NCBI GenBank assembly: GCA_964017185.1
Contig: OZ024876.1
Location: forward strand, 17,744,226 to 17,808,225
Length of the DNA stretch: 64,000 nt
From: Rugalucina vietnamica
Lineage: Eukaryota; Mollusca; Bivalvia; Lucinida; Lucinidae
Direction: 5' to 3'
Shown here: positions 29,544 through 62,270 of the stretch, one piece after another
How positions within the stretch are numbered: the stretch's first letter is position 1
Layout: the number at the start of each line of letters is the position of its first letter
Notes under the pieces: generated by a model
What the model was told of the DNA's origin: nothing
The model's database searches: none
Seen by the model: the letters and a program-made list of their open reading frames with translations, nothing else
Position numbers and translations under genes: made by a program

Positions 29544-32500
29544 CTGTAATAGATTAACCTTAATATGACGAATGGACTTGTCCATCATTACTATTTGGGT
29601 GAGTACACTTTCATACTAAGGGGACTGGAGTGATTTTGAAATTTTATTCAATTTCTTGGCAAAATTTTGCTAAGCAAACAGAATAGCCCAAGATGGGGAT
29701 ATAATGTTTGCCTATGTCCAACAAATAGGATGACAGGCTTATATGAGTTAAGGAAAGTTTGTAAGTTTTCCTCTGTTGGTCAAGTACACAAATAGAAATG
29801 TGACTTTAACATACCCAAACTCATTGTTAAAGTGCAAAGTTTTCCAATAATGTATTTTAATGTCGACAATTTTTCAGTCATCAAATGACAGGGGCTCTGG
29901 TTCCTGGATAAGGTATGATGGGTAGTTAATGCCTCTTGCTCGAGACTAAATGAGCCATCTCATGAGAACTCAATCTGCATATGCGAAAACAAAGACGCAG
30001 ATCAGCTTCGCGGTTACTGCGAAGCTGATCAGCGCCTTTGTTTTCGCTACACGGATAGTACACTTTCTCTTCTTCTTAAATCCAAAATTTCAAGCTTCTA
30101 GCCTGCTACTGTGTCTGTACAGCCTGATTTGTGTTAGACCTGTTCGGAAATCACCTTGTTGGTTTTCTCACGAGATAGCTCAAATGACAGGGCCCTGGAT
30201 AACATATAATGGGGTCTTGCTCAAGACTAAGTCCAGTGCCAGTGAGGTTCAAAGCTTAGGCCTCTCAGAGTCTGACATTGTATGTCTGTTTCAGAGACTG
30301 ACATTGTCAAAGTCCACTAAATGCAAAGAACCCAGAATCAAAAGCCCATGCTGGATGGCCATACAGGCTACAACACTGAAAGTTTTCACATTAAGTTACT
30401 ACACATTATATAATTGTTTCTCTGGCTATTGGGGTACTTTATAGGGGAAAGAAAGTATACCCACCTGATTTTGATTGAAATATGCCTGTGGTGAGCCCCA
30501 ACTACTAGAGTGGGTGGGGCTATATCTCTGTGGCAGTTGACTAGCTACTGGGGTACTTTAAAGGGGGACTGAAAGTATACCCACCTGATTTTGATTGAAA
30601 TGTGCCTGTGGTGAGCCCCAACTACTAGAGTGGGCGGGGCTATGTCTCTGTGGCAGTTGACTAGCTACTGGGTACTTTAAAGGGGGACTGAAAGTATACC
30701 CACCTGATTTTGATTGAAATGTGCCTGTGGTGAGCCCCAACTACTAGAGTGGGCAGGACTCTGTCTCTGCGGCAGACTAGTGGCAGTTGACTGACTACTG
30801 GGGTACTTTAAAGGGGATTGAGAATTAAATCCACTATAAACATGCTGTCTGCCCATCTGTCTGTATGGGTCCTGGTTGAAGTTCTCTCTGAAAATGGAAA
30901 TTTGAATTGTTAAAAGCAAATGAAAATAAGAGCAGCGTCGCATCACAGCATAGCTCGCCTGACTCGTGCTTTGCCACTAAATCTATTAAAATCTATTACC
31001 CATGACCTTGACCTCAAGGTCACCCAGGTGGGTAATAATGATACAACAAAACCTCAGACCATTATCTACCAACATGCAAAGTATCAGTCAACAGGTTGAA
31101 GCAATATAGATTTACGTGCCGTATAAAGATAAAATATAAATGTTTGATCCTTTGAAGCAGTGAAAACGTTCAAAGGGAGGTCGTATGGGCCATATTGCGC
31201 AATTTCGGGTACTGAACCCTCACCAGTGACCCTTTATAAACCGGCGACGATAGCCAGACAAATATACTGCAATTTCAAAAATTTACACAAGGGTAGTCTA
31301 AATCAAAGACACATGCCTAAACGGGGTCAAATAATGAAGGTGGCTCTAAACGTAAAATTTTAAAACTCTAAATATTCTAATTGATCTCAAAGGACCAAAA
31401 GAAATAATATAATCTGCACTATGGATGATGACTTTTTACGGCCGCCACACAGCACAACGCCAGCTACCATAATAGCAAATAAAACATAAATGCTTGATCC
31501 TTTGGAAGCAGTCAAAATGTTCCAAGGGAGGTGGTATGGGCCATATTGCACAATTTTGGGTACTGATCCCAGTAACCATTTATAAACCGGCGACGATAGA
31601 CATATAAATGTACTGCAATTTCAAAAATTTACACAAGGTAAGTCTTAAAATCAAAGACACATGCCTAAACGAGGTCAAATAATTAGAACATTGTTTAGAA
31701 GATGGCTCTAAACGTAAAATTTTAATACTTTGAATATTCTAATTGAGCTCAAAGGACCGAAAGAAATAATATAACCTGCACTATGAATGATGTACGGGAC
31801 AACTTTTTACGGCCGCTAAACGGCACAACGCCAGCTGCAATAATAGCAAATACATGTAAACTATAAAGGTTTGATTCTTTGGAAGCAGTGAAAACGTTCC
31901 AAGGGAGGTTGTATGGGCCATATTGTGCAATTTCTGGTACTGAATCCTCACCAGTGACCCTTTATAAACCGGCGAGGAAAGCCAGATAAATATACTGCAA
32001 TTTAAAAAATTTACACAAGGTCAGTCTTAATCAAAGACACATGCCAAAACGGGTTCAACTTTAACCAAAAACTTTTACATTCGAGCAACACAGACGACAA
32101 CACCAAAGCCCAGGCAGTTCTAACGACTACCCACAATCTCTGTTTTGGAGCAATAATAAGAAAAATAGGTATACCCCTGCATACCCCAGTTTTACTATAT
32201 AAAAGTGGGGTTCAAGGGGGGTATACATAACACGGACATGTTTTCCTGATGCGATTCTCATAATGCCAACCTGAAATCCTGTTTATTCTGTGACACAATT
32301 GTTTCGCTGCCTCCCTGTATGGGTCGGTTACCCGTGTAGGAACTAAGGCCTGTCCCCTGTTCTGCTGGCTGCTCCAGGGGGATAGCTAGCCCCTGACCTG
32401 ATGCACCTTGGCCACCTTGTTGTGATGTTCTGAAACAATATGAGCCGCCATGTGAGAAAACTGGTTCTTAAAAGTTTCTAGACGGCCAAACAATGTCTAA

Positions 32501-35500
32501 TCTTTGGCTAATTTTCAAAATTTTTGCAAGTCTGATTGGACAAATTTAGATAAAATGCTGAAAATAAAATTAAGATATTTCCTCCAACTGAATGGTAAAA
32601 ATTCTCAAAGAAAATTCATTGACAGACATCATTCAATTTCCACACTTAAGATTTAATAATTTAAAGCTATTTGTTTGTTAGTGAAAAGGCATAACTTAAA
32701 AGTCAAAAATTTTTATTGGGTCAGACAATGCCTTTTTATGTGTATTGCTCCAGATGAATCATACATACTTAGCTGATGTGTTTGTACAGACAATATACTC
32801 GACATCTTCAGTATACGGGTTTTGGAAGCTGAAGCTGGTCGTCCTCAGCCACACCCATTCCCTGTTAGAGGCACGGAACCGGTACATGATTGATATAGCT
32901 TGACCTTTCAACTTTAGCACTGAAATGAAATATTGCACGATTAAGATCGCTTCACCTTTCAACTTAACCTTTAGCATGCTGAGCAATATAGTGAAATCGA
33001 TATCGCAGCCCACTGACGTTTTTTCCAATTTTTTTCCGTGTTTTCTTAATTTTTGAGCCATAAAAACAGCTGAATAAATTCAACAAACGCAGTAAACAAA
33101 TCTACTTTCGGTTTCGGAAGTCTTTGTTACGCCGATTTCTAGCGTAAAAATTCATCATACGTACCGTTACGATGTCATATTTCGGGTGTAAATGCACCCA
33201 ATTTTCCATTTACCAGCGAAAAAAGCGCTGAAAATGCATTTCTAATGCAAAAATAACGAAAATCCGATCAAAATCGGCCGACAAATCGGTCCCAAAACCA
33301 CAAGCCGCCATGTTGTTTTCATGCGCAACTGTCTGGGCATCGCTCATTAATATTCATAAGTAGGCAGTGGGCGAAAAGTGCGGGAAATTTGAAAGCGGTT
33401 TTTCTTGTCGACCGCAGTCGCCTCTAGTTGGCACAGATAGGTATTCCACGGTCGACCGCAGTCGCCTACAGCATGCTAAAGGTTAAGCACTGAAATGAAA
33501 TGGTGCATGATTAAAATCACTTGAACTTTCAGCTTTAGGACTGAAATGAAATGGTGCTTGATTAAAATCACATGAACTTTCAACTTTAGCACTGAAATGA
33601 AATAATGTATGATTAAGATCACTTGACATTTCAACTTAAGCACTGAGATGAAACGGTGCATGATTACGACAGCCTGGCCTTTCAACTGTAGCACTGAAAT
33701 GAATGGTGCCTGATTAAGATTGCTTGACCTTTCAACTTAAGCACTGAAATAAAACGGTGCATGATTACAATAGCCTGACCTTTCAACTTTAGCACTGAAA
33801 TGAAATGGTGCCTGATTAATATCGCTTGACCTTTCAATTTTAGCACTAAAACAAAATGGTACATGATTAATATCGCTTCACCTTTCAACTTTAGCACTGA
33901 AATGAAATGGTGCCTGATTAATATCGCTTGACCTTTCAATTTTAGCACTAAAACAAAATGGTACATGATTAATATCGCTTCACCTTTCAACTTTAGCACT
34001 GAAATGAAATGGTGCATGATTAAGAATCAAGACCTTTCAACTTTAGCACTGAGATGAAATGGTGCATGATTAAGAATCAAGACCTTTCAACTTTAGCACT
34101 GAGATGAAATGGTGCATGATTAAGAATCAAGACCTTTCAACTTTAGCACTGAGATGAAATGGTGCATGATTAAGAATCAAGACCTTTCAACTTTAGCACT
34201 GAGATGAAATGGTGCATGATTAAGAATCAAGACCTTTCAACTTTAGCACTGAGATGAAATGGTGCATGATTAAGAATCAAGACCTTTCAACTTTAGCACT
34301 GAGATGAAATGGTGCACGATTAAGAATCAAGACCTTTCAACTTTAGAACTGAAATGAAATGGTGCATGTTTAAGATCTTAACAAATGGTAATGGTAAAAT
34401 ATAAGCCAAGTCAAAAATGCTGTAAATTTGTCAAAAAAGATTTTTTCAGCATAATACTTCTTCATGCGCATCTGCAGTATGTCTGGAGCATATATGCAAA
34501 GTATCAAAAGGGAACATTGAAAGCTGTAGGACCCGAGTTGATTTGCCCTTTCAGCACCATAGCAATCATGTTATGTATGGACTTAAAAAGTCCCATAACT
34601 ATTGAAAAACTGATCCTTCGGCCACTAAATTCATATCACTCATGTGTTATATGATGGTGCAGTTGTGGTGAAAATTTGAAGAAAAAAAAAATCGAGAAAA
34701 AGTTTCTTTAGCTATTAAGCAAAAATGTCCAAATGTTGACAGAATCATTGAAAAACGGACTTGTTAAAAGCAGTATATATATATATAAAAAAAAAACAAC
34801 AACTCAGTTTTGCAGGGGGTATAATGAGGCAGATAGCCAGATTTAATAAATGAAAATGACACAAACTTTAGTTATTTTTCAAAGCCTTTTTTCAACCTTT
34901 CAATATGGTTTACCTTGGTCAAAATTTTCCTTCATGTGCGCTTGATCTTCAGGGTGATAGAAATCATACACCGACTTCCCAAGGAGATCTTGTGGCTGGT
35001 AACCTAGCAACGCTGTTACTCTGAAATCAAAACAGCCAGTTTCTATGACAACCCAGCAGCAAGAACACTTGGTGAACAGTACTGCTCATTGTCTGGTTTT
35101 ACAACTTCATCAATACATCAACCATGTCAGGCTGCAGCAACCATTTCCTGTGTATTAATCAGTACCATGGGAAGTTAATGCATCTTTTCTCAATTACCCT
35201 ATATTGCGTCTGTAACCATTAACCTCTTGCTGAGGAGTATGACACTCTAACGTTAAACTATGCTACCATACCACCCTAGTCGCGAGTTATGAAACTTTTG
35301 TCATGCTCAACTCAGGTGAGCAGAAAATTTAAACTGCTCATAAATGACAAAATAGCCCAAATAAATTGAAATTTCAGGTTTAGATCACCAAAGCCTGTAA
35401 TTTATCCTGCTCATAAATGTTAAAATGCCAACAATTGTTGGCATTTTAACATATATGAGCAGGATAAATTTTAGTCTCAGTCGAGCTGAGCAAGAAAAAA

Positions 35501-45394: not shown

Positions 45395-48300
45395 GTTGTC
45401 TTCCTCCTCCTCCTCCTCATCATCATCAGGAAGGGAGGTTTGGGGGCAGTCCTACATTGCATTTCTGTAACATATTTTGTCATCAGTTCCTTTTCCATTT
45501 GGCCCAGTCAACTTCCACATCCTACGATGGATGAAAGACTCAGCAACAAACTTACCTAGGGGGCCTTCACCATAATCTACTGACCGACCACCTGATTACT
45601 GGTGAACTGCTTGGGAGCTTAAGCCTGCCCAGGAAAAGTGGTTTTGTCAAGCCATCCATACATATAAACGCAAGTTGTTTAACTGTATGTTTTTTTTTTT
45701 ATACATATTTCTGAAGCACTGTTTGGATGTCATCACATCTCAATGTTGGGTAGTAGTCTCATTAAATGGAGGTAAGGCCCTGGCATGACCATAGCTGTTG
45801 ACTAGGACGTAAATCAACATATCAAACAAACAAACTTACCTGGCAAATTTTTCTTTATCTGCCTGGTCTGTTGGGTAGGAACCGCCCGCATTGCTGTCTT
45901 CATCATCAGAACTGGAAAAATACCAAACAAAATGAAACCTGATGTGAGAAAACTGGCCTTTATGACCAGATCCAACATAAACCAGCCTGCACAGACATAG
46001 AAGAAAGTCAGAAACTTGAAATTTCAGATTTAACAGGAGAATGAATATCACTTTTAGTGTAGCAAAAATAAAGGCCATGTAACTGCACAGCTGATCTGCG
46101 CCTTTGTTTTCCCATAGGCAAAAATCCAGTTTTCTCATGATGTGGCTCATCACTCTCATTACCAGCAGAAAGTGAGGAAATCTGCATTTTTCTTTCATTA
46201 CTTTGCATTGCCAATGTAATGTCATGTCTGGCAATGTCTAAAGTTTGCGACCATATTATATATCCAGAAACTTAATGCCATAAGACTGGCCAACATCCTG
46301 AATTAACAATCATTAATCAAAAGTTTGTGTATACATAAGGTGACTATCAAATGAGCCATGACATGAGAAAAGTGGTCTTCGGGATCTCCGACCATATCAT
46401 ACACAAACCAGTCTGAACATTCACAGAGGTAGGCTAGAAGCTTGAAATTTCGGTTTAAGAAGAGGAATTGTACAATCCGTGTAGCAAAAACAAAGGCGCT
46501 GATCAGCTGTGCAGTAACTGCACAGCTGATCTGCGTCTTTGTTTTTGCATCTGCAAAAATCCGGTTTTCTCATGACGCAGCTCATATGATTAAAATTTGG
46601 ATGGTAGTCTTCTCTTCAATTTCAAGAAAAATGGAATTATAGTGGGTAGCATCTTTTCATCCCGTCAGTATAGAAACCTAAAGGAGACTTTGGGGTGCTT
46701 ACATTTTAATGTAAGTGTCTTGGCAAAGGACAATACAGCAATGGCTATTTGACAAAACTTCATCTTCAACCCTTTATTATTATTTATTAAGCTGAGCGGT
46801 TAAGAGCGCTGTTTCTTAATTACTCAATCATCTCATCGCTGTGTCTGGTGTGGGTTCGAGCCCCGCACTGGCCACATGTGAGACAAGCCAAGTTCTGCTT
46901 GCGGGTGTGCCAGGTTTTTCATGGGGCACTCCCGTTTTCGCCCACCTACTGATTGGCCCGTCTCATATGAGCTGAAATAATCTTGAAAGGGACGTAAAAC
47001 TGAATTAAAAAAAAAAAATATTCATTGAGAAATTAAAGGAAATGCTGTGCTGTACCCATGGTTTTGAAAACACAAATTGGAGGTTTTTTCATGCAGAAAC
47101 TCAAATTAGCTCTAAATCCTATCTTTCTCATCAAAATAGATGTTATTTGTGTTTTCACACTTTTCTCAGAAGAAACGTTTTGGTTTCCATGACAATGTTT
47201 TTGATATTAGCAAGCAGATTAAATCTTGTACTCCACAATATATTATGGCAATTAAGCAAGTCTTAAATGAATATTAAAGCATTGTTTAGTACAAAACATT
47301 TGTTTGTACAAGTATGGATAAGCATGAACTGGGTGGGAGATGTGCGTGTGTGTGTGTGTGCACGCGTGCGCATGCCTTGCATTTTTTCTATTATCATTTT
47401 CAATGTAATACTCATGACTGTAATATTGAAATAATCTGTTCATGCATAAAGCATACCAGATACTCAATTCAAAAATAGTTTATTTACATGTAAAAATGTT
47501 ACAAAAATAATTTGCCACAGGAAGTTTACAAATAATAGTTTGTAGGTAAACAGTTTCAAATTCCGACTTCACAAAACTACCTATAGCCCCTGTTATGAGA
47601 AAACTTGTCTTCATGGTTTCTAACCCTTCTCCCCTGTTCTGACAGGATTCAAAACAGACTGTACAACCACAGAAGATGTTTAGATTAGGTAGCTAACCCC
47701 TCTCCCCTGTTCTGATAGGATTCAAACCAGACTGTACAACCACAGAAGATGTTTAGATTAGGGCCAAGCTTAAAAAATATTTGGTTTGCCACTTCCTACT
47801 GGGAGGTTTAAGAGTTGGGTAGGTAGGTAGCATTATTATTTTTTTTTTTTGCATGTACAAATTCTAATGTCTAATGAACAAATGCAAGTTGTCTAAAATA
47901 GCCAGATTACAAGCTTTTTCTGATAGTTCCTTTGTCAAATAGTGTCAAAAAGATACAGAAAACATCATTTATGCATGAACAAAAGGTAAACTAAGGCATT
48001 TTATTGTCAGCATAAATGAAAAGCAAAAAAAAAAAAAAAAAAAAAAAAAATCCTTATTCTGAGGCCATAAAAATTTTTGGGTAGGGGGGTAAATTGCTGG
48101 GTAGGTGGAAGCGGCAAACCAACAATTTTTTAATTTTGGCCTAGGGAGCTAACCCCTCTCCCCTGTTCTGATAGGATTCAAACCAGACTGTACAACCACA
48201 GAAGATGTTTAGATTAGGGAGCTAACCCCTCTCCCCTGTTCTGATAGGATTCAAACCAGACTGTACAACCACAGAAGATGTTTAGCATCAGGATAACATT

Positions 48301-57527: not shown

Positions 57528-58473
57528 TTGTAACTTGTAACTTGTAACTTGGTTGTAGTAGAATCTGTAAGTCCTAACGACTTGTCTTCTACTTCTCTTC
57601 TTTCATACTATTTAAAGGTAACTTCCGGTGCTTATTTAAAGTCTCTATTAGTCGTGTTAGTTGACTGGCTTTATAATGTCATATTGAAGAACATGTTGTA
57701 TTTCTCCTTTAGTAGATTTCTCCAGTTTGGTATTTTTGGTCCCCCATGTATCTGTCATACATGGTTTTAAAGCTCAGAACTGTAGATGTGTTCACCATAT
57801 CATCTGGCAACGCGTTCCACTTATCAATAACTCTGACACAAAATGAATTTTGTCTAAATGATTTCAAAGCTCTTGGTTTAACTAACTTTTTACTATGGCC
57901 ACGTGTGTTTAAGTCTGAGAACTCGAAAAAATCTTCCATTTTCACATCATCTATGTTGTGGACAATTTTGAAAACCTGTATCATGTCCATTCGATATCTT
58001 CTGTATTGTAGTGTTGTCAGATTTAACATTCGTAATCTATCCTCATAGCTGAATTGAGCAAGCTCAGGGAGCAGTCTCGTAAGTCTTCTCTGAACATTTT
58101 CAAGGGCACGTATGTCTTTCTTTAACATTGGAAACCAAACAGTATTGCCATAATCGATTATTGGTCTGATGATTGTTTTGTACAATATCAATAATGTTTC
58201 TTCATCAAGGTATGAGAAGGCACGTTTGATTAATCCCACTAGTCTATTAGCTTTGTTTACTGTCAGGCTTATATGTTTATCAAATTTCAAATTCTCCTGT
58301 ACATGAACTCCCAGATCTTTTTCCAATTCAACCGATTTTAATACTTTAGTGTTTCCATCTCTGTCTGTCATTTCATATTCAAATCTTGGATTGTCTTTAC
58401 CTATGTGCATCACTTTGCATTTGTCAACATTAAACAACATAACCTGAACCTCAGGTGTTGGGTCAGGGCACAA
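57528..58473 (-). pseudogene. CR1-like non-LTR retrotransposon, 3' fragment of reverse transcriptase
   Basis: The open frame 57709-58473 covers the part after the RT catalytic site: FNVDKCKVMHIGKDNPRFEY, EKDLGVHVQENLKFDKHI, then KANRLVGLIKRAFSYLD, LLILYKTIIRPIIDYGNTVW, ENVQRRLTRLLPEL, LRMLNLTTLQYRRYRMDMIQ and FCVRVIDKWNALPDDMV, ending YQTGEIY-stop. That is the usual C-terminus of animal CR1/Jockey-group ORF2 proteins. Upstream (58460 and beyond) the similarity stops, so the copy is 5'-truncated as expected for target-primed insertion. On the minus strand it ends in a short tandem tail (ACAAGTT repeated about three times, 57528-57553) rather than poly(A), favouring the CR1/L2 group. Confidence 0.85.
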
Positions 58474-58929
58474 AATTTAAACACATCATGTAAAAATTGA
58501 CAATAATGCATTACACCATGGCAATGTCTCCCGATCGAGAGAATTTGTCCATCTTAGAGAATTATCCCCAGCTGTCTGAGTGTTATATTCATGCTGTCAA
58601 AGAACCACAGTGTGGCACTCAATTGTGATCAAGCCAAGAAACAATTTCCATACCTGAACCACACTGTCCAGGGGAAAGAGAGGTTGTTGCCATTCAAAAG
58701 TTTAAATGGTGGGAAAACTTGATAATAAACGTAAATGAGCTTCTAAAACACAATAAATGTAAACAATTAGGTAAACTGGAGATCTTTAGTCTCCATTTTG
58801 TGTTGATTAGACTGTGACACTTCTTTTCGTTCCGGGTCACCTCGGCCCAAAACGGTTTATGATCAACTCGTCCCTGGTCAACTCTCGCCCCACTATCGTT
58901 CACCATCTCGGCCCAGGGCGGGTCACGCC

Positions 58930-59749: not shown

Positions 59750-62270
59750 TCGGGGCCATCATAGAGTCTGACGCCCGACCCACCGGCGTGCAATTAAAGA
59801 AGGCAGCAAAGTTATCAACCGTGATTGGGTTAAAACTAAGCATGCAGACTGTCGCATAATATTTAAGTTATATCCTATACGTCTGTAACGCGTAATGATT
59901 TTTCTGAATTGAAAAGAAAAATCATTCCTTCCAATACGTTTCTTAAATTTGTAAACCAAGTCACCATAAAATTCTGGTTTCGAAAGGTCCTCACGTAAAA
60001 GGGTCTTTAGCCCAACATTAAATTTGGAAATCAGTTCATAGTGTCTGCGATAAAATTTAGAAAAGTTTTTTTTTCGAAGTTTATGATACCTATAGCCCTG
60101 CTGAAGAAGTTTGGCTCTTAAACATTTATTTCGTGCATTGAAGTCCGCAACATGATCGCAGACTCTAGCAAACCTAATAAGTTGTGAAATGTATACGCCA
60201 TAAGAAGCACGGCGAGGAACGTCACCATCCAAAAACGGAAAGTTTACTATATCAAAATCAAAGTCATCACGTTTATCATAAATTTTAGAAGAAACGAATC
60301 CATTTGCAATAGAAAGATGTAAGTCTAAAAATGGGGCTTCGGTATCTGTGTTGTTTGCTTTATTCAACTGTAGTTCAGGGGGATAAATTTGTTTGACCAT
60401 GCCTTTAAAATAAGGATTGTCAATGTTCAAAAGGTCATCGAGGTACCTAGAAGTCGAATTAAAGGCCTCGATAACATCAGCTTGATTGTTATGGTTAAGA
60501 GAATCTATGAAGTCTCTTTCGTAGCAGTATAGAAATAGATCACTACGAGAGGGGCGCAATTGGTACCCATTGGGATTCCGACAATATGTCTGTATAACTT
60601 GGTCCCAAAACTAATATAAACATTATCCAGGAGATAGGATACGTCATCGCATACATTCTGACATGACCAAAGTGTATATCGACTTTGGTCAGAGGAAGTG
60701 AAAAATGCTTTTCTATCATTACAGGCCAAATAAAGTGAGCCATAGTTTTTTAATGCTCTATTGAATGTCCACTCTATCAAATCGAGTAATTTTTCTTTAA
60801 TCAGATTATGTGGTAATGTGGTATGAAGAGAAGAAAATTGTATGTGGACAAGCTCGTCGCACGGAACCCTCTACACTTCAATTTACTGAGCACCTCGCCA
60901 GAACTTTTTATTGACCAAAACCAATTTTTATTTGAAGTTTCATACACCGTCTCACAGTATCATATGACATGAGAATTGATAGCAGTAAGACAGGAAGTTA
61001 ATAATTTAGAAAGTTCAGTGGTAGTACAAGAACTAGAATTAGCAATAAATCTAGCTTTGTATGGTCTTTTGTAGGAAGGGAATCTGTATTTCGGACCTTT
61101 AGAAACAATATTGCGAATTCTAGAATCCGAAATTATTTTTAAATTTCCAGTTAAATATGTCCGGCGGGTTGATAAAGATATTTTGAATCTTTTCACTCTC
61201 AAGACTTAGGAGTATTAGCATGGATATCAAGATCAGAAACAAGTTTATTTGGGAAAATAGCTGCTCATTCGGCTTACGATATGTTTCATGGTATAAGTAC
61301 ATGATTGTTGGTTTGGTTTTTTCCCACCTCGGTTTTTGGAGTGGGAATCTTTTTCTGATTGCGCCTTTTCCTGATATTTGCCTACTTGTACCTTTTTATT
61401 GAAATTAAAAATTGTATTTCTGATTGGTTTGTTATATTTGTAACAAATAATAGGAGGTTCCGAGTTTTGGAAGTACGTAGGTATAGACTGTGACACTGAT
61501 TTGTCCTGGAATATACTTGGTAAATCAATAAAGTCAATTCCTTTATTAATGAATGGAATTTTAATGAAATGCCGTATGTGATTAGATTCGGAATCGATAC
61601 ATGGACGAAGAGCGTGTTGAGTATAACATCTTGTCAGCAGTGCAGCATCGTACATTTGATGATTTCTATCGTAAAATCTGTTAGCCTCTGTGTCCAAGGG
61701 ACGTAATACAGCAATAGGTAGAGAACTAAGATAAGAAAGCATAGAATGTCGACCGTGTTCCCTTAGTTTAGCCGCTAAATCATTAAGGGAAGTGTTCAAT
61801 TTCATTGCAGCGCACCGTTTTCGCTTGTCATTGCCCCTTTTCCTTATACCAAGAGATCTAGATTTACGTTTACGAGACTCTAAAAGTGTAAGAACATCAA
61901 AATCGGGCATTTTAGAAATATTACCTTCATGGTAAATGTTGTCGCTAAATCCCAGTGGAAAGGGTGTTTGCAATAATTTTATCCATTTAAGTTCAGTTTC
62001 AAATTGTTTGATGTTTTTGAATGTAATGGAAGAATAAGAATCATATGAAATTTTCTCCACTGGTTGCACTGTAATATTATGGGGAGAATGACCAGTGCGT
62101 TTAAAATGCTGGTAAAGAAAAGCATCGATATTTTTAGGCTTTGTGATTCTACGATCATAGTGTTCACCAAATCGTTTTTGCAAAGTTCAATAAGATTGTC
62201 CAACATATTGCATATTACAATTTTTAGTATTTCAAGTTAAAACATATACAAGATCCATTGATTTTCAATC
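59750..62270 (-). pseudogene. Penelope-like retroelement with N-terminal GIY-YIG, decayed
   Basis: Reading the minus strand: first (62267-62080) a GIY-YIG type endonuclease with LVYVLT, YVGQ at 62207-62196, RFGEHYDR and HFKRTGHSP; next a long linker (FDVLTLLESRKRKSRSLG, HGRHSMLSYLSSLPIAVLRP, YDAALLTRCYTQHALRPCID); then the reverse transcriptase, with YRFPSYKRPYKARFIANSSS near 61070, IVGIPMGTNCAPL near 60580, YLDD at 60445-60434 and APFLDLHLSIANGFVSSKIY after it; and a C-terminal QGYRYHKLRKKNFSKFYRRH region. The endonuclease lies before the RT, the permuted order described for Naiad-type Penelope elements, whereas canonical Penelope has it after. The copy is dead: TGA stops at 62265, 62232 and 62187, a one-base loss near 60543 between IPMGTNCAPL and DLFLYCYE, another shift near 59835, and a broken stretch at 60800-60960. 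Confidence 0.85.

Follow-up and report, generated by a model that had tools for sequence, protein, structure and literature searches.

Minisatellites whose repeat unit spans an intron-exon boundary have been described in amphioxus, under the name of mirages, in Adh3, in the globin genes BflGb6 and BflGb9 and in TnC and PGBD5 (the latter two in PMC3902484), with units of 10-72 bp in Adh3 and of about 150-160 bp in the globins (PMC3087553, PMC3902484). These arrays are reported to vary in length and to leave regular splicing undisturbed (PMC3087553, PMC3902484). In human ABCA7 an intronic VNTR similarly begins at a splice site, which recurs in its units; an effect on splicing has been shown there and the retention of one unit observed (PMC5954066). 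Exon segments together with splice signals are also found in tandem in intron gain by tandem genomic duplication (PMC4974935; the Rogers model as given in PMC3087553), human internal tandem repeats activate cryptic splice sites (PMC2812944), and introners are repeated intronic sequences that carry splice signals (PMC9860276). No published case of a mirage outside amphioxus, molluscs included, was found among the matches listed.

Here we describe an array that, from its anatomy, is a mirage minisatellite of the kind known from amphioxus, in a 64,000-nucleotide stretch of the genome of the bivalve Rugalucina vietnamica (the window, on contig C8 of a 1.09 Gb assembly in 47 contigs that represents one haplotype). 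It lies on the minus strand in the intron before the PAS-B exon of ARNT (32920..34376, including the MITE considered below) and consists of 18 tandem units of 50-51 bp and a partial first copy, each unit joining the start of that exon to the end of the intron. The units run head to tail, each includes an exon-intron junction of ARNT, and the authentic boundary stands intact beside them, the exon (32919-32769) being open with both its AG and its donor present. Tandem units of this sort, carrying splice signals and lying beside an intact exon on its acceptor or donor side, are also described in amphioxus, and the ARNT unit length falls within the range given there. The differences are the host phylum, a mollusc in our case, the number of copies (18 decoys in ARNT and ∼20 in a kinesin array, as compared with the 6 and 3 units of the two BflGb6 haplotypes) and the MITE inside the ARNT array; the likeness is one of anatomy. 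The ABCA7 VNTR, in contrast, lies on the donor side, and its 25-bp unit is described as intronic, without mention of an exon part (PMC5954066). Unlike in intron gain, an existing boundary has been copied into an existing intron, and unlike introners, which copy themselves into many genes, the array is at one locus only in a genome search.

ARNT is encoded on the minus strand and 11 of its exons were mapped, from about 44146 to 29260 (some exon ends in this map are only rough, and the 5'-most coding part lies outside it). The 151-nt PAS-B exon (32769..32919, "exon 12"), with real acceptor ATTTCATTTCAG|TGCTAAAG, has an ARNT chain as its best phmmer match (E 5e-53) and contains Pfam domain PAS_11 (2.4e-29), in agreement with the host exon named in the original prediction. 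The preceding mapped exon on the same strand ("exon 11", 34914..35020) ends in the donor CAAG|GTAAAC and leaves one base of a split codon. Between them is an intron of 1,994 nt (34913-32920), in which the array and the MITE fill 34376-32920. TRF calls the array at 33486-34376 with a period of 50, 17.6 copies and 88% matches, and splitting it at every acceptor AG yields 18 decoy acceptors, from 34348 to 33489 on the minus strand, and the real one before 32919, so that the ∼18 head-to-tail, sense-oriented units anticipated earlier are indeed there. With the MITE insert set aside, 10/18 units are 51 bp long and 8/18 are 50 bp.

The array is derived from the exon 12 boundary. Each unit is made of the first 39 nt of exon 12, the source of its exonic part, and 12 nt of intron end; the derivation had thus been recognized correctly, while the exonic length, given earlier as about 35 nt, is to be read as 39 nt. 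In a typical 51-bp unit the exon-like portion TGCTAAAGTTGAAAGGTCAAGCGATATTAATCATGCACC (36/39 relative to the exon) is joined to the intron end ATTTCATTTCAG, and the 51-bp consensus likewise agrees with exon 12 at 36/39 positions, as compared with 23/39 for the best match outside the array among 127,963 positions on both strands of the window. Individual units match exon 12 at 29-36 of 39 positions, a similarity that extends beyond a few bases. When 509 bp of array DNA were searched against the genome (with a program that ignores very common words), four overlapping matches were returned, all at this locus, and a 16-nt core of the unit occurs 11 times in the genome, 10 times at the array and once on contig C1. 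Because the reversed core, used as a control, also occurs once, the stray copy on C1 is at the level of chance. We therefore reject the possibilities that the array has nothing to do with ARNT or that it belongs to a mobile repeat with acceptors of its own, since array DNA was found at one locus only in that search.

The array comprises 12 distinct unit sequences in ordered blocks. Furthest from exon 12 are seven 50-bp units (33999..34348, minus strand), five of them identical and the other two differing from these at 2 and 4% of sites. They are followed by ten more divergent units (33490..33998, minus strand; nine of 51 bp and one of 50 bp, at 33743-33694) with mutual differences of 8-27% where they are not identical; two pairs are identical (33998 = 33896 and 33947 = 33845), forming a 102-bp higher-order duplication. 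Being near-uniform, the outer block was probably the latest to expand, and its homogeneity suggests recent turnover. All 18 decoys retain their AG; this is a weak argument for selection because 24 of the 51 unit columns are invariant anyway, and selection on the decoy AGs is indistinguishable from the general conservation of unit columns. A raw count of changes among units gives 20 synonymous and 25 non-synonymous. When the 51-bp units are analyzed by parsimony with frame controls, the synonymous fraction slightly exceeds its expectation, at 0.40 versus 0.27, and does so solely in the frame of exon 12 (one-sided p 0.046 for this one frame out of six, uncorrected, eight distinct units). We do not claim past translation of the units, the excess having shrunk to this value in one of the six frames.

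The unit adjoining exon 12 is split by a 515-bp insert (32968..33482, minus strand) that had gone unnoticed in the original prediction. It has 14-bp terminal inverted repeats, CCTTTAGCATGCTG, and a perfect TTAA target duplication (32964-32967 and 33483-33486). TTAA was available at the point of insertion because the unit reads CTTAAG there in place of CTAAAG, a change that is found in two other units as well. The genome contains 561 candidate copies of the family, of which 40 were scored; every one of these was listed at 100% identity, and ten, this one included, reach the top score over 515/515 bases. The copy in ARNT and 11 others were retrieved, and each of the 12 measures 515 bp and is flanked by TTAA on both sides. 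With its inverted repeats, TTAA duplication and many near-identical copies the insert is a TTAA-type MITE, of a family that has apparently been active recently. Since the copies are nearly identical the insertion is recent, and alleles that lack it may exist.

As had been expected, every unit is a decoy 3' splice site, all 18 having kept the acceptor AG together with a plausible tract. The pyrimidine fraction is 0.65-0.71 for the decoys and 0.65 for the real site, with a median of 0.62 (0.35-0.82) for the other ten mapped ARNT acceptors, and in 15/18 decoys, as at the real site, a branch-like yTnAy motif (TTAAT) is located 21-22 nt upstream of the junction. Exon 12 reads TCAAT at the position of the motif, inside a serine codon, and the serine is also present in the matched ARNT chains; with the motif lying in exon-derived sequence, the branch region of the real acceptor is probably itself copied exon. 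When reading is started from each decoy with the leftover base of exon 11, a stop is reached before exon 12 in 18 of 18 cases, so that on the sequenced haplotype only the real acceptor gives an open reading. The seven outer 50-bp decoys stop after 9 codons, the reading from six further decoys is broken by the 50-bp unit at 33743, and that from the five nearest ends within the MITE. The suggestion that the 51-bp units stay open and add 17-residue repeats therefore fails on this haplotype, and the one that newer 50-bp units shift the frame survives as to their recent look and not as to the frame, which ends after 9 codons rather than being merely shifted. In the inferred MITE-free form the five nearest of the 18 decoys are open, adding 51-255 nt (17, 34, 51, 68 or 85 residues), and the idea of an addition to the protein could therefore hold for another allele.

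We consider it likely, with a probability of roughly 0.78, that the array arose as a mirage by tandem duplication of the boundary and minisatellite turnover, that the last acceptor is used and that the array is nearly neutral. A 51-bp segment comprising the last 12 nt of the intron and the first 39 nt of the exon would have been duplicated in tandem, the copies would have expanded and diverged through ordinary minisatellite turnover, with a late expansion of the 50-bp variant block, and the MITE would have inserted into the copy adjoining the exon. Splicing would choose the last acceptor, probably via exon definition, and would treat the upstream copies as intron, leaving most decoys unused and the array close to neutral. 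Arrays at exon edges may persist because introns can hide them, purely exonic duplications altering the protein. A neutral process is consistent with the stops that end all 18 ARNT decoys and 12 of 13 kinesin decoys (see below); against it stand the synonymous excess of the 51-bp units, unexpected under strict neutrality, and the one kinesin decoy that is open. Moreover, with decoy signals as good as those of the real site, some decoy use would not be surprising. Were decoys partly used, early-stop transcripts would be produced and degraded and repeat number could tune ARNT output, an explanation that we find unlikely even though 18 strong-looking decoys are transcribed ahead of the real site and every one of them leads to an early stop. 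Exon definition disfavours long exons, and exons starting at the decoys would measure 721-1580 nt; the array, moreover, gives no indication of having been maintained for its splice signals. Published work points both ways: the ABCA7 VNTR, which begins at the donor of exon 18, is correlated with reduced expression and with skipping of exon 19 (PMC5954066), whereas in amphioxus regular splicing is reported to proceed undisturbed by mirages (PMC3087553).

That the array diversifies the protein, the five proximal decoys of MITE-free alleles adding 17-85 residues to PAS-B, seems to us very improbable. The open reading of 5/18 decoys in the empty-site form, the recency of the MITE insertion, which means that empty alleles may exist, and the weak synonymous excess confined to the exon's frame would all fit; all decoys are closed on the sequenced haplotype, however, a PAS-B strand would presumably be interrupted by the added residues, and the excess is of marginal significance even before any correction for the six frames. 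Tandem arrays can be mis-assembled and we have a single haplotype, yet we give next to no credence to an assembly artefact in view of the 12 distinct units in ordered blocks, the MITE with its perfect target duplication inside the array and the similar arrays at other exons.

Boundary copies are found at 2 of the 11 mapped ARNT exons, the second being a minus-strand exon (30704..30887) that ends in ...CAAAATCAG|GTGGGTATAC, with the donor GT at 30703. Downstream of it is a donor mirage (30449..30703, minus strand) with two further copies of the exon end and GTGGGTATAC donor (GT at 30584 and 30464), in units of 119 and 120 bp; the copies carry an AG (GTGGGTATACTTTCAG) in addition to the donor. 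The remaining matches to ARNT exons resemble dispersed repeats or A-runs beside the exons, and for exon x4, whose end is set only roughly, such matches overlap the 3' part of the query. Upstream of the mapped exons two separate 73-bp x2 tandem duplications of an acceptor-like CCCCTGTTCTGAYAG|GATTC... were seen (47620-47762 and 48142-48285), which may represent either a further duplicated boundary or a dispersed repeat. One ARNT intron contains three diverged copies (32045-31130, minus strand) spaced by about 350-380 bp, each with GCATGTGTCTTTGATT... followed by a AATTGCAG-like stretch.

A kinesin-family search of the genome gave 133 matches, grouped into 60 regions, and three lots covering the first 31 of these by contig name (75 matches and 168 kb in all) were read. 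Clusters of copies had been noticed in the match list beforehand; those on C10 belong to the first of the lots, and those on C2 and C3 lie outside the regions read. Merging copies of the same exon (six in L041, two in L043, one in L037) left 66 distinct exons, and 13 of them have a local same-strand copy (14 before a 24-nt case in L056 was set aside). The number is 11/66 without L037 and L039, where the copies include the donor or the whole exon and which could be ordinary exon duplications. Nine cases are on the acceptor side (L028, L035, L040, L043, L045, L047, two in L053, and L058), with three decoys each in L028 and L045, four further aligned copies in L043, four and an eroded set in L053, and an eroded array in L058. 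L041 and L055 are on the donor side, the donor being lost in the L055 copy. The largest donor-side array seen is that of L041 (C10:15531631-15538812), in which 20 copies of ∼107 bp, made of the 3' end of the exon and its donor, come after the exon, and 19 of them keep GTAAGG. The L043 acceptor array (C10:32694612-32701941) has units of ∼166-170 bp, and one match there lies within a 1177-aa open frame. Decoys were read in six acceptor arrays (L028, L035, L040, L045, L047 and the first of L053, leaving out L043, the second of L053 and L058), where 12 of 13 meet a stop and one, in L045, is open and adds 99 nt. The preponderance of acceptor over donor cases, a tally that leaves out L037 and L039, is suggestive only (9 vs 2 in kinesins, two-sided p 0.07; 10 vs 3 with ARNT, p 0.09).

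As a control, random 200-bp non-exon segments, at least 60 bp from matched exons (they may overlap exons unmatched by the search), were examined for same-strand copies 25 bp or longer no more than 3.5 kb away, and 95 of 248 had one. Exons with local copies are thus rarer than such segments (13/66 vs 95/248, Fisher p 0.005, in a comparison that is not length-matched and has the low-complexity filter off for exons and on for the control), and an enrichment of duplications at exon edges was dropped. Because random segments are copied more often than exons, no exon-directed process is needed. TRF arrays with a period of at least 20 cover 13% of the bases in the surveyed kinesin regions. The likeliest cause is a general load of local duplication, in which copies at exon edges are tolerated as splicing ignores them, and the presence of mirages at 2/11 ARNT exons and at ∼1/5 of the kinesin exons surveyed points to a high tandem-duplication load as their origin. 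As far as shown, the ARNT array is ordinary in mechanism, uncommon among the papers found and apparently of a frequent type in this genome. It is doubtful that mirages at a sizeable share of exons form a heritable, fast-mutating layer of splice dosage, in which copy number would set the amount of correctly spliced mRNA and MITE-free ARNT alleles would also add 17-residue PAS-B repeats. With eighteen acceptors of nearly equal quality lined up ahead of a single exon, the locus offers a natural experiment on 3' splice-site choice, and read mapping and gene annotation may err at exons of this type.

Elsewhere in the window three long open frames are present on the minus strand (57709-58476, 59759-60610 and 61245-62186), whose appearance suggests fragments of retroelement reverse transcriptase and endonuclease, with no Pfam match at E 0.001. 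The mitochondrial contig C47 is 30,680 bp long, large for animal mitochondrial DNA, and carries COX1 in the invertebrate code, presumably molluscan by its looks.
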